Made by a program: the position numbers and the translations under genes
Assembly (NCBI RefSeq): GCF_031457275.1
Contig: NZ_JAVDWH010000001.1
Span: 1,736,001-1,800,000, forward strand
DNA from: Aeromicrobium panaciterrae
GTDB taxonomy: Bacteria > Actinomycetota > Actinomycetes > Propionibacteriales > Nocardioidaceae
DNA length: 64,000 nt
Direction: 5' to 3'
In this document: one piece after another, positions 27,755 to 32,439 of the stretch
How positions within the stretch are numbered: position 1 is the stretch's first letter
How the letters are laid out: each line of letters starts with the position of its first letter
Notes under the pieces: generated by a model
What the model was told of the DNA's origin: nothing
Databases searched by the model: none
What the model saw: the letters and a program-made list of their open reading frames with translations, nothing else

Positions 27755-28606
27755 GTGAGTGAGCCGATCGACATCCCGCCGCTGAGGAATCCGTGGATGG
27801 TCGCGGCATTCGAGGGTTGGAACGACGCTGCTGACGCGGCTTCGGGCGCGGTCGATCACCTCATTGAGGAGTGGGACGCCGAGCTGCTGATCGAGCTCGA
27901 CCCGGAGGACTACTACGACTTCCAGGTGCACCGTCCGCACGTGACTACTGACGAGGACGACGAACGCGTCATCGTCTGGCCAGCACCGTCGATCTTCCAC
28001 GCCCGTCCGCGACGCAGCGATCGGGATGTTCTGCTGCTGCGCGCTCCTGAACCGAACTTCCGCTGGGGAGCGTTTTGCTCGACCGTCATCGGCGTGGCGA
28101 AGCTTGCCGGCGTCACCGAGCTCATCACGCTGGGCGCTCTCCTCGCGGACTCTCCGCACACGCGTCCCGTACCTGTCAGCGGATCGACATCCGACAAGGC
28201 GCTGATGGAACGTATGTCGCTGCAGCCGTCGCGCTACACCGGTCCGATCGGCATCACGACGGTTCTCAACGACACTGCAGCCCGTGAGGGGATCGCGACA
28301 GCCTCGCTTTGGGCCGCCGTCCCCCACTATTTGGCTGAGCCGCCGTGCCCCAAGGCGACACTTGCCCTGCTGGGCTCGCTTGAGGATGCCGTCGGCATAC
28401 CGCTCCCACAGGGCGTTCTCGTTGAGATGACGGACGCCTGGCAGCGAGGAGCTGAAGACCTCGCCTCACGAGACGCCGAGATTGCCGAGTACGTCGAGGC
28501 ACTCGAGCAGGAACGCGACACCAGCGACCTTCCTGAAGCCAGCGGCGATGCGATCGCGCGAGAGTTTGAGCGCTACCTCCGTCGCCGCACCGACGACCCG
28601 GAGTAG
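27755..28606 (+). CDS. PAC2-family protein (proteasome assembly chaperone 2-like)
   Basis: The 283-residue protein shows the actinobacterial PAC2 pattern: PPLRNPWMVAAFEGWNDAADAASGA at the start, a central strand-turn region LAGVTELITLGALLADSPHT, and a charged C-terminal helix. PAC2 relatives help assemble eukaryotic proteasomes; a link to the bacterial proteasome encoded 10 kb away is tempting but not shown by the sequence. The MFS gene follows after seven bases, so the two probably form an operon. Confidence 0.85.
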   Translation: MSEPIDIPPLRNPWMVAAFEGWNDAADAASGAVDHLIEEWDAELLIELDPEDYYDFQVHRPHVTTDEDDERVIVWPAPSIFHARPRRSDRDVLLLRAPEPNFRWGAFCSTVIGVAKLAGVTELITLGALLADSPHTRPVPVSGSTSDKALMERMSLQPSRYTGPIGITTVLNDTAAREGIATASLWAAVPHYLAEPPCPKATLALLGSLEDAVGIPLPQGVLVEMTDAWQRGAEDLASRDAEIAEYVEALEQERDTSDLPEASGDAIAREFERYLRRRTDDPE

Positions 28607-28613
28607 CGGCTAC

Positions 28614-30074
28614 GTGACCAAGTTCCGGGATCGCATGTCCGTGCCTGCGCTGATGTTTGTGGGCGCAGTCAACGCGATCATCAGCAGTCTCGGTGCGCCA
28701 CTACTCCCGCAGATCGCCAAAGATCTCGACGCGAGTATCTCCAGCACGCAATGGGCGTTGACATCGACGATCGTGGTTGCCGCAATAGCCTCGCCGCTGG
28801 TGGGACGTATGGGCGACGGAAGGCATCGACGTTTGGTTGTGGCCGCATGTCTCGGCTCAGTCGTGATCGGCTGTGTGATGGCGGCACTTGCCACATCGCT
28901 CGGGCCGCTCATCTTCGGTCGCGCTCTGCAAGGACTCGGCATGGCGATCATGCCGTTGACCATGGCCGCGGCCCGGGACCACATGCCCCCGGCTCAGGCG
29001 CGCAACGTCATCGCCGGGTTGTCTGTGGTGGGCGCGGCCGGCGTGGGCCTGGGCTACCCCATCACGGGGCTCGTTGCTGATCACGGCGGCGTCGCTGCCG
29101 CCTACTGGCTGGGTGCCGGAGTCGGCGCTGTGTCGCTGCTTCTGGGGCTCTGGGTCATCTCACCGCCGAATGATGATCGACGGACGATGAATCTCGACGT
29201 CATCGGGGCATTCATCGTGGCCGTCGGGCTCGTCCTCGTTCTGATTCCGCTCGACAAAGCAGTCGACTGGGGCTGGACCTCCGCACCTGTGCTGGCGATG
29301 TTCGCCTCCGGTATCGGTTTGCTCGCTGTCTGGACCTTTCACGAGTTGCGTACACGGGATCCGCTCGTCGACCTACGTCTCTTGAGGCACCGAGCCGTGC
29401 TCACGGCCAACCTCGCAGGCCTTCTAATGGGCCTGACGATGTACATCTTGATGGTCGTGATTGTGCAGTTCGTCCAGCTCGACTCTTTTGGACTCGGGGA
29501 GACGATCTTCATCGCGGGACTGACCCTGGTGCCGATGTCGGTCCTCAGTGGGGTCATGAGCTTCGCGCTCCCCCGCCTTCAATCGCGCTTCAGTATCCGT
29601 GCTGTCATGTCGAGTGGCGCCATCTCGGTCGCGCTGGGCGCTCTGATGTTTGGGCTCACCGCCACAGCGCTCTGGCAGGTACTCGTATGTATGGCGCTTG
29701 TTGGCATCGGTATTGGCACGACCTTCGCAGCGCTCCCGGGACTCATCGTCCTCGCTGTGCCAGCCGAGGAGACCGGCAGCGCAATGGGCTTCTATCAGGT
29801 CTCGCGCTTCTTCGGCTTTGCGCTGGGCAGCGGTCTCGCAGTGACCTTGCTTCGGGCACTCGGCGACGGTGGCGAACCCACGCTCGAGTCGTACAAGTCG
29901 ACCGCACTACTCATCGTCGGACTAGGTGTCGCGACGGCGTTGGTCACGTGGTTCCTGCCCGGCCGTCCATCGGCGGCTCAGCGAGACGTCGACGCCAGAT
30001 TCCAGGTTGAGGACGGCATGCTCGCGTCGGCGGGCCTTGAAGATGGCGACAGACCGGCTACTACTTCTTCCTGA
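28614..30074 (+). CDS. MFS drug/solute transporter, DHA2-like
   Basis: The 486-residue protein is predicted to have 12-14 membrane segments. The loop 2-3 motif appears as GRMGDGRHRR and motif C as the glycine-rich GLSVVGAAGVGLGYPITG. This suggests a proton antiporter exporting small molecules, substrate unknown. GTG 28614 is seven bases after the PAC2 stop; the longer open frame begins inside PAC2 and is not supported. The last 14 bases overlap the tiny convergent gene at 30061. Confidence 0.85.
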   Translation: MTKFRDRMSVPALMFVGAVNAIISSLGAPLLPQIAKDLDASISSTQWALTSTIVVAAIASPLVGRMGDGRHRRLVVAACLGSVVIGCVMAALATSLGPLIFGRALQGLGMAIMPLTMAAARDHMPPAQARNVIAGLSVVGAAGVGLGYPITGLVADHGGVAAAYWLGAGVGAVSLLLGLWVISPPNDDRRTMNLDVIGAFIVAVGLVLVLIPLDKAVDWGWTSAPVLAMFASGIGLLAVWTFHELRTRDPLVDLRLLRHRAVLTANLAGLLMGLTMYILMVVIVQFVQLDSFGLGETIFIAGLTLVPMSVLSGVMSFALPRLQSRFSIRAVMSSGAISVALGALMFGLTATALWQVLVCMALVGIGIGTTFAALPGLIVLAVPAEETGSAMGFYQVSRFFGFALGSGLAVTLLRALGDGGEPTLESYKSTALLIVGLGVATALVTWFLPGRPSAAQRDVDARFQVEDGMLASAGLEDGDRPATTSS

Positions 30075-30171
30075 ACTTCGCGGTGAGCCGCGCTCCGAGC
30101 AATCCACCAACGACTGCACCGATCACGACGCCGACAATCACAGTTCCGGATCCGTCAAAGAGCCAGTTCAT
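30061..30171 (-). CDS. 36-residue single-pass membrane protein downstream of mshC
   Basis: ATG 30171 opens a frame MNWLFDGSGTVIVGVVIGAV, then VGGLLGARLTAKFRKK: a glycine-zipper-like helix (GxxxG spacing) with a basic C-terminal tail, which favours a cytoplasmic C-terminus. The ribosome binding site AGGGGG stands six to seven bases upstream. The mshC stop codon is 11 bases before ATG, so it should be co-transcribed. Its 3' end overlaps the MFS gene by 14 bp. The function is unknown; it is too short for most gene finders. Confidence 0.65.
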   Translation of the reverse strand: MNWLFDGSGTVIVGVVIGAVVGGLLGARLTAKFRKK

Positions 30172-30182
30172 CGGATTCCCCC

Positions 30183-31406
30183 TTAGAGCAGCACGCCGAG
30201 CAATGCGTCGATTGCCGCTCGAGCGGTGTTGCCAGCGATCGGGTCATCTCCCGATCCTGAAGCCCAGGTGTCGATAGCCGCAAGTGCTGCAGGGGCGTCG
30301 AGGTCGTTGGTCATCGCTGACCTGATCTCGGCAACAAGGGCTTCACCGGACGGTGCAGTGGCGCGCTCGACGGCGGTTCGCCAAGCAGTGAGTCGCTCTT
30401 CGGCTTCGCCGATCTCGCCTCCGAACCATTCCCAATCACTCCGGTAGTGGTGTGCGAGCAGTGCGAGGCGGATGGCCATGGGATCACGGCCCTCTGCGCG
30501 GAGCTTGGAGACGAGGACCAGGTTGCCCTTGGACTTCGACATCTTCTCGCCCTCAAAGCCGACCATTCCGGCGTGGACGTACGCCCGAGCGAACGGCTCA
30601 TGGGTGGCAACTGATGCCTCAGAGGCTGACATCTCGTGGTGCGGGAAGACGAGGTCAGAGCCACCGCCCTGTACGTCGAACGCCGTACCGAGGTTCTCCA
30701 GAGCAATTGCCGCGCACTCGATGTGCCAGCCGGGACGACCTTTGCCGAGGCGGGTGTCCCACGACGGTTCGCCCGGACGTTCGGCGAGCCACAGGAGACA
30801 GTCCAGGGGATGCTTCTTGCCAGCGCGCTCAGGGTCTCCCCCGCGTTCAGGGAAGATCCGCAGCATCGTTTCTTCGTCGAAGCCCGAGACCGTGCCGAAG
30901 TCGGCATCCGCGTGAACGTCGAAGTAGAGGTCGTCATCGACTCGATACACGGCACCAGCCTCATCGAGCTTGTCGATCAGGTCGACTACGAGGTCGATCG
31001 ACTCGACGGCGCCGACGTATGCAGCGGGTGCCAAGATGCGAAGCGCCGTCATGTCGTCACGGAACAGCTGGGTCTCGCGTTCTGCGAGCTCCACCCAGTC
31101 AACGCCGGTGGCCGTCGCCCTCTCAAGCAGTGGGTCATCGACGTCCGTGACGTTCTGCGTGTAAGTCACGTCGAGCCCACGATCGAGCCATGCGCGTTGC
31201 AGCAGATCAAAAGCCAGGTACGTCGAAGCGTGGCCCAGGTGCGTGGCGTCGTACGGCGTGATGCCGCAGACATACAGCCGGGCACTGCCCTCCGGGTCAC
31301 TCGATGCGAGGCCGTTGCTCGCTGTGTCGTGGACCTGGACGGCCGGACCGTGCCCGAACCCGAGATCGCCGAGTGACGGGACCGCGGGTGACGTCCAGCT
31401 ACGCAT
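30183..31406 (-). CDS. mshC: mycothiol biosynthesis cysteine ligase MshC
   Basis: The 407-residue enzyme is a cysteinyl-tRNA synthetase paralogue lacking the anticodon domain. The class I signature appears as THLGHA (HIGH motif) within [15 protein letters not shown] and as EKMSKSKGN (KMSKS). The N-terminus [10 protein letters not shown] is characteristic of MshC and sets the start at ATG 31406, supported by TACGCT six bases upstream. It joins cysteine to GlcN-inositol using ATP in mycothiol synthesis, the main actinobacterial thiol. Other msh genes are not in the window. Confidence 0.95.
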
Positions 31407-31412
31407 AGGTCG

Positions 31413-31418
31413 AGCGTA
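31413..31418 (-). promoter_or_regulatory. predicted -10 of mshC (leaderless)
   Basis: TACGCT ends six bases before ATG 31406. Confidence 0.5.
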
Positions 31419-31467
31419 TCGGGAGGACACATACGGCATGTCGACGGCTGGACTGAGGTAGGCGGTG

Positions 31468-31473
31468 CAGAAT
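31468..31473 (+). promoter_or_regulatory. predicted -10 of corA (leaderless)
   Basis: CAGAAT ends six bases before GTG 31480. It is a weaker match (NANNNT) but decides the start. Confidence 0.35.
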
Positions 31474-31479
31474 GACGAC

Positions 31480-32439
31480 GTGATCATTGACTGCGCCGTC
31501 TACCGAGACGGTGTCCGCGAATCGACCGAGCACGACACTGGCGCGCTGGAAGCCGCCATCGCCGGCCTTGGTGACGACGACTTCCTGTGGATTGGTGTCG
31601 GCAACCCCAGGACTGACGAGCTGGAACGCGTGGCGGGAACGCTCGGGCTGCACCCGCTTGCGGTAGAGGATGCGCTTGAAGCGCACCAGCGGCCCAAGGT
31701 CGAGCGCTATCCCGATCACATCTTCATGACGCTGCGCACCGTCTCCTACAGCGACGACGACATCACGACACATGAGGTCAACATCTTCATGGGCGCCAAC
31801 TTCTTGCTGACCGTGCGACACGGTGGACCGGATCTCAAGGACGCTCGCAAGGCTGCGGAGACGATGATCGAACCGCTCTCCCACGGCCCAACGGCAGCTC
31901 TGCACGCCGTTGTGGACTCAATCGTGGACCGATACGAAGATGTCGCTGCCGAGCTCGAGAAGGACGTTGAGGAAGTCGAGACGTCGGTCTTCTCGAACGA
32001 GTTCTCCAACGACTCAAGCCGCATCTACCGGCTCAAGCGCGAGACCCTCGAGTTCCGGCGGGCCGTGATGCCGCTTCGAGATCCGGTGGAGCGCTTCGCC
32101 ACAACATCCATGCCTGAGGATGCGCGACCGTACTTCCGCGATATTGCTGACCATCTTGCACGAGCTGCTGAAGCAATCGAGTCGATCGACAAGCTGCTCG
32201 ACAATGCGCTCAACGCCCACCTGGCGCAGCTGAGCGTCCAGCAGAACGAGGACATGCGCAAGCTGACCGCGGGCGCCACGATCTTCGCCGTACCGACCGC
32301 AATTGCAGGGATCTATGGCATGAACTTCGTTCACATGCCAGAGCTCGAATGGTCCTTCGGCTACCCGATGGTCATCGTTGCCATCGCCGGAATCTGCAGC
32401 TACATCTACTGGCGCTTCAAGCGCTCCGGCTGGCTCTAG
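31480..32439 (+). CDS. corA: CorA-family magnesium/cobalt transporter
   Basis: The 319-residue protein has a large acidic cytoplasmic domain and two C-terminal membrane helices separated by the YGMNF selectivity motif near residue 288, with the basic tail WRFKRSGWL. It takes up Mg2+ or Co2+ as a pentamer. I start at GTG 31480 ([11 protein letters not shown]), matching the usual family N-terminus and the 6-base promoter spacing; GTG 31465 would add five residues. The stop codon overlaps that of uppP (CTAG). Confidence 0.9.

Follow-up and report, generated by a model that had tools for sequence, protein, structure and literature searches.

Genomic context of the small gene

The window, i.e. the whole stretch of 64,000 nt of Aeromicrobium panaciterrae DNA that was analysed, carries mshC on the minus strand, a small gene directly behind it and two convergent genes further on. 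The features concerned are the following:

27755 to 28606, plus strand: PAC2-type gene, which converges on mshC in many loci of the genus (distance to the mshC stop up to 400 nt in 23 of 45)
28614 to 30074, plus strand: convergent MFS transporter gene (family search; no orthologue found in the genus)
30061 to 30171, minus strand: predicted gene of a 36-aa small membrane protein (MNWLFDGSGTVIVGVVIGAVVGGLLGARLTAKFRKK), stop codon included (ORF list and homology)
30064 to 30090, minus strand: basic C-terminal tail R28-K36, without the Q-containing tail of the relatives (alignment)
30091 to 30141, minus strand: predicted transmembrane helix, approximately residues 11-27, with glycines at 14, 18, 22 and 26 (hydrophobicity and alignment)
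30142 to 30165, minus strand: N-terminal motif W3-x-F5-D6-G7-x-G9-T10, common to the LPO_1073-linked proteins (alignment)
30176 to 30184, minus strand: Shine-Dalgarno stretch AAGGGGGAA, overlapping the mshC stop (duplex energy -10.2)
30183 to 31409, minus strand: mshC (TIGR03447)

The small ORF is read from an ATG at 30171 to a stop ending at 30061 (36 codons, minus strand), and 11 nt (30172-30182) lie between this ATG and the mshC stop (30183-30185). The initial annotation had described this frame by its ATG, strong Shine-Dalgarno sequence, single glycine-rich helix, basic tail and distance of 11 nt from the mshC stop, all of which were found as described, and its naming of the neighbour as mshC agrees with a match to NCBIfam TIGR03447 at 606 bits (cut-off 485). 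With the anti-Shine-Dalgarno sequence, the stretch CTAAGGGGGAATCCG-ATG gives a duplex energy of -10.2, the best among the 6 gene starts tested, and a value of -10.2 or better was reached by 2% of 2000 random 20-mers of the window. No terminator-like site was found between mshC and the small gene in a scan of 29900-31700, which says little since shuffles of this region average 0.8 such sites; a single transcript for mshC and the small gene is plausible. No Rfam match was obtained at gathering scores over 29800-30400. At its other end, the last 14 nt of the small gene overlap the end of the convergent MFS gene, and the stop of the small gene falls inside this overlap.

The gene at 27755-28606, which we take to be of the PAC2 type, lies less than 400 nt from mshC in 23 of the 45 Aeromicrobium loci compared and farther away within the examined flank in 11. 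In the other 11, the A. panaciterrae locus among them, a search of the examined flank behind mshC did not find it. The space that separates mshC from the PAC2-type gene is a variable spot, and some other loci carry various intervening frames.

The MFS protein resembles most closely exporters of the EmrB type, with a score under the cut-off of that model. Matches at 1e-60 or better were obtained in 9 of 49 genomes of the genus; one of these is the window itself and the others are 31-35% identical, so that no orthologue was found in the 48 other genomes (best match 35% identical). All matches in plasmids (62 records) are below 60% identity, and the 15 listed of these 62 are 35-37% identical and belong to Streptomyces (12), Nonomuraea (1) and Rhodococcus (2).

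Properties of the predicted protein

The hydrophobicity of the 36-aa protein is 2.25 over 19 residues. In 50% of 200,000 Markov sequences of matching composition, a frame with its start in the first 30 nt ran for at least 30 codons; with a hydrophobicity of at least 2.0 the share fell to 3.5e-4 of 200,000 sequences, and with an ATG in addition to 1.05e-4, figures which take no account of how many places could have been inspected for the initial annotation. The length of the frame is thus uninformative, since half of the Markov sequences hold such a frame, whereas its hydrophobicity and position are informative. In codon usage, the frame of the small gene is the best of 6, weakly (0.123 versus 0.047).

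Searches of Pfam and NCBIfam with the small proteins of the window and of two related loci (L131 and L132, see below) gave nothing above cut-off, and the anti-phage models of PADLOC gave no match at E 1 for five proteins (that of the window and, from L131 and L132 each, the small protein and the LPO_1073 protein). Weak PHROGs matches of the small proteins were nearly all to families of unknown function. In brief, the 36-aa protein shares a glycine-spaced helix with two Pfam families, (i) Gly-zipper_Omp (PF13488; E 5.4e-4), although its score of 20.3 is under the curated cut-off of 25, and (ii) Rick_17kDa_Anti (PF05433; E 0.021), although its score of 15.2 is under the curated cut-off of 24.2.

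Comparison of the mshC loci in the genus Aeromicrobium

A match to mshC was found in 45 of 49 Aeromicrobium genomes, including that of A. panaciterrae, and the stretch behind mshC was examined in all 45, with only 289 nt behind mshC in the sequence examined for one of them (L016). The 36-aa protein was found behind mshC in none of the 44 other loci, and a search of the whole genomes of the genus returned only the protein itself and two matches that were rejected (L004 and L005). A conserved position downstream of mshC, which the initial annotation had proposed to check by tblastn in relatives, is thus contradicted. Its implied tie to the mycothiol unit is not supported: besides the absence from these 44 loci, the five relatives described below precede LPO_1073 genes, and the small gene adjoins an MFS gene for which no orthologue was found in the genus. 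The tempting association of a new small protein with mycothiol synthesis is thereby removed.

Four other loci (L013, L014, L021 and L024) carry a different protein of 60-61 aa with two helices behind mshC, whose GTG start overlaps the end of mshC. Like the protein of the window it is a small membrane protein behind mshC, but it differs in its sequence, in its GTG inside the mshC end and in being kept in four genomes. Pairwise comparison of these two-helix genes from L013, L014 and L024 shows 12-14 silent and 13-20 replacement codon differences, with changes mostly at third positions. The two-helix protein is a more promising candidate than the 36-aa one for an mshC-linked small membrane protein. 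The sequence behind mshC is identical in L014 and in the A. ginsengisoli locus L036. Furthermore, a 68-aa hydrophobic frame with a GTG start lies behind mshC in L011. Altogether, hydrophobic small frames were found behind mshC in 8 of 125 loci, that of the window included, in a set that contains named duplicates of some genomes of the genus.

Relatives encoded in front of LPO_1073 genes

Five relatives of approximately 59-73 aa share with the window protein a start of the form W-[LFMI]-[FL]-[DE]-G-x-G-T followed by a helix; four are encoded in genomes of the same order (L131, L132, L174 and L175) and one on a viral contig (L143).

A tblastn search of the 36 residues against 341 genomes of the family gave 7 genomes with a match at E 0.01, namely the protein itself, two relatives and four that were rejected. 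After the self match, the order was L131 (E 2.8e-6), L004 (5.4e-5), L132 (2.4e-4), then L005, L133 and L134. L131 and L132 encode proteins of 60 aa that share the start and the helix and have a Q-rich tail; directly behind each lies an LPO_1073/Vpar_1526 gene (61.5 and 64.3 bits for NF045477 against a cut-off of 45). The other four were set aside: L004 and L005 (28 residues at 71% identity) are part of 188-aa frames that have no W-x-F-D-G start and run opposite a gene resembling by eye a carrier-protein gene; L133 is inside a long frame that appears transporter-like by eye; and L134 is within a 261-aa frame that appears by eye to encode a membrane protein.

In the viral contigs, a strict DNA pattern built on the relatives' start motif matched one stretch, L143, which is followed by an LPO_1073 gene (93.1 bits). 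The window ORF fails this strict pattern because of a serine at residue 8. A relaxed pattern, which the window ORF matches, found 4 stretches, i.e. L143 and L158-L160; the last three are a single 29-residue chance read in three contigs, have no helix and were rejected, as was a 234-aa viral-contig frame with a similar helix (L144).

With a four-row profile, the 367 genomes of the order yielded two more strong members, L174 and L175 (matches L165 and L166), and the genes that follow them match NF045477 at 92.5 and 63.4 bits. In all, 29 of these 367 genomes had a match, five of them strong (the protein itself, the places of L131 and L132, L165 and L166) and the other 24 at E 7.8e-4 or worse; L167 and L168, the two of these 24 that were inspected, are parts of longer frames and were rejected. 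In the phylum, the 7 matches besides the protein itself are weak (E 0.0029-0.01) and lie in frames of 137-602 aa.

An LPO_1073 gene is thus linked to all five relatives and not to the small gene of the window, downstream of which lies the convergent MFS gene; indeed, NF045477 gave no match at E 0.1 in the genome of A. panaciterrae. Genes of this kind are rare, being present in 3 of 341 genomes of the family and in 1 of 396 genomes of the phylum sample. The 36 residues gave no tblastn match in plasmids or phages, and neither the small proteins nor the LPO_1073 proteins of L132 and L143 had a match in plasmids. In phages, the LPO_1073 protein of L143 had one partial match, in an unannotated record.

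Strength of the homology

The rows of L143, L174 and L175, without the window row, were made into a profile that was scored over 14,922 ORF starts (window and 125 loci), with letters as read from the DNA. The window ORF reached E 1.7e-7 and 31.3 bits, the best unrelated frame scoring 8.2. With L174 and L175 alone, it reached 5.2e-7 and 29.8 bits (best unrelated frame, 10.3), and when the non-ATG starts were entered as M it reached 5.5e-8 with the three rows and 9.1e-8 with L174 and L175; all these E-values are somewhat flattering, since the window sequence had contributed in part to the patterns and profiles that led to L143, L174 and L175. Linkage to LPO_1073, which the relatives have in common, played no part in their selection.

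In the alignment, W3, G7, G9, T10, G18 and G26 are invariant in the 6 rows, as is M1, where M is written at three non-ATG codons; residue 27 is an alanine in the window protein and Y or W in the relatives. This homology is that of 29-36 aligned residues of a helix with biased composition, and the 36-aa gene was found in one genome. The small proteins of L131, L132, L143, L174 and L175 resemble the window protein in the same invariant residues, in a helix at the same place and in basic residues after the helix, but they have a Q-containing tail and a partner gene, whereas the window protein has neither. The window protein does have the W-x-[FL]-[DE]-G-x-G-T start and the small-residue helix. 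Because two defining features, the Q-containing tail and the LPO_1073 gene directly downstream, were looked for and not found, the window ORF is classed as a putative tail-less solo variant of the membrane subunit of LPO_1073 units, a family without a name, and not as a full member of a unit.

The small ORF is therefore likely to be a genuine gene for a one-helix membrane protein. Of the initial proposal of a small membrane protein gene in the mshC transcript, the gene itself is supported (profile E 1.7e-7) and is placed so that it could be read from the mshC message, and the single transcript is plausible.

LPO_1073 units and their tails

Four LPO_1073 loci were found by the family model. Two of them, L131 and L132, have the kind of small protein described here; in L145 a different small protein, with by eye two helices and a similar tail, lies in front of LPO_1073; and in L142 no such small protein was seen before LPO_1073 among the listed frames of more than 45 aa. 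A viral relative of LPO_1073 (L162, 51% identical to that of L143) has beside it a further small protein, which is hydrophobic and has a tail of this type. Seven LPO_1073-type units thus have a small membrane protein in front (L131, L132, L143, L145, L162, L174 and L175), as judged by eye for L145 and L162.

Among the five relatives, only L175 has no Q-x-Q in its tail. The tails also resemble, to varying degrees, the N-termini of the partners. Out of 1000 shuffles, the score of the tail against the partner N-terminus was reached by 0 for L131, L174 and L145 and by 2 for L162; the resemblance is weak in L143 (22), L132 (73) and L175 (171). A motif common to both partners in several units offers a testable guess at how they assemble. 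In the three frames of its strand, the 200 nt that follow the coding part of the small gene in the window encode no Q-x-Q. As the window protein ends in a basic stretch at about the place where a tail would begin, and no Q-x-Q lies beyond, docking would be lost.

Vpar_1526 figures as an uncharacterised protein in a proteome fraction table (PMC5491611), and the accessible literature under the names LPO_1073 and Vpar_1526 offered nothing beyond that table. The findings point to a kind of small protein that has no match above cut-off in Pfam or NCBIfam and none in PADLOC (for the window, L131 and L132) and is linked to LPO_1073/Vpar_1526.

Origin and possible function

We consider it rather probable that the small gene is a genuine, acquired, orphan membrane module of the two-gene LPO_1073/Vpar_1526 unit, without the partner or the tail, and that it is not a component of mycothiol synthesis. 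The variable gap between mshC and the PAC2-type gene would have received it in its own lineage, probably along with the MFS gene, and it would be translated from the mshC message. Glycine zippers favour the packing of helices, also against other helices. In complete units, the helix may self-associate via its small residues four apart (14/18/22/26), and the Q-containing tail could bind the N-terminus of the LPO_1073 protein, which it resembles, and keep that protein at the membrane. The basic end of the helix argues for a cytosolic C-terminus, which is a predicted topology. As the tail is missing, the window protein could insert and oligomerise and could not recruit an LPO_1073 partner; some activity may nevertheless be left in it.

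The strongest alternative, which we regard as unlikely while still deserving weight, is that of a decaying remnant of an LPO_1073 unit that has lost its second gene and the tail, perhaps on arrival of the MFS gene, and that is readable and functionless. Such decay would agree with the absent tail and the partner that was not found, both being present in all five relatives, and with a stop located inside the overlap with the MFS gene; however, the frame is intact, as are the start motif and the zipper, the ribosome site is strong, and no vestige of a Q-x-Q follows in any of the three frames.

That the small protein acts alone and modulates a nearby membrane protein, in the simplest case the convergent MFS exporter, is improbable. 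AcrZ modulates AcrB in a comparable manner, the small gene and the MFS gene adjoin and were both found, within the genus, only in A. panaciterrae, and a helix with a glycine zipper is able to pack against others, but the two genes are on opposite strands, hence without a common transcript, and no second genome has both; the closest MFS matches in the genus are 31-35% identical. A chance open frame without a product is very improbable: a frame of such length arises in half of random sequences, it was found in one genome of the genus and its codon signal is weak, but helix and position together have a chance of 3.5e-4 (1e-4 with the ATG), the profile built without the window row gives E 1.7e-7, and the relatives have a genomic linkage in common.

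Beyond the orphan-module reading that we prefer, the LPO_1073/Vpar_1526 genes could, as a distinctly speculative proposal, form an undescribed two-part membrane device, in which a very small glycine-zipper anchor docks by its Q-rich tail on a matching motif of a soluble partner, the window then encoding a 36-residue anchor set loose, which would still assemble in the membrane but lack the tail for docking. If this were true, the loose anchor might be, for example, a membrane-active peptide, or a dominant-negative or immunity form against such devices. The possibility that the Q-tails are bacterial amyloid signalling motifs is mentioned as an idea only; similar motif pairs occur on neighbouring Bell and NLR proteins, according to PMC8086366. 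In L175, a 598-aa frame downstream of LPO_1073 is by eye of a helicase or restriction type, as in a defence island.
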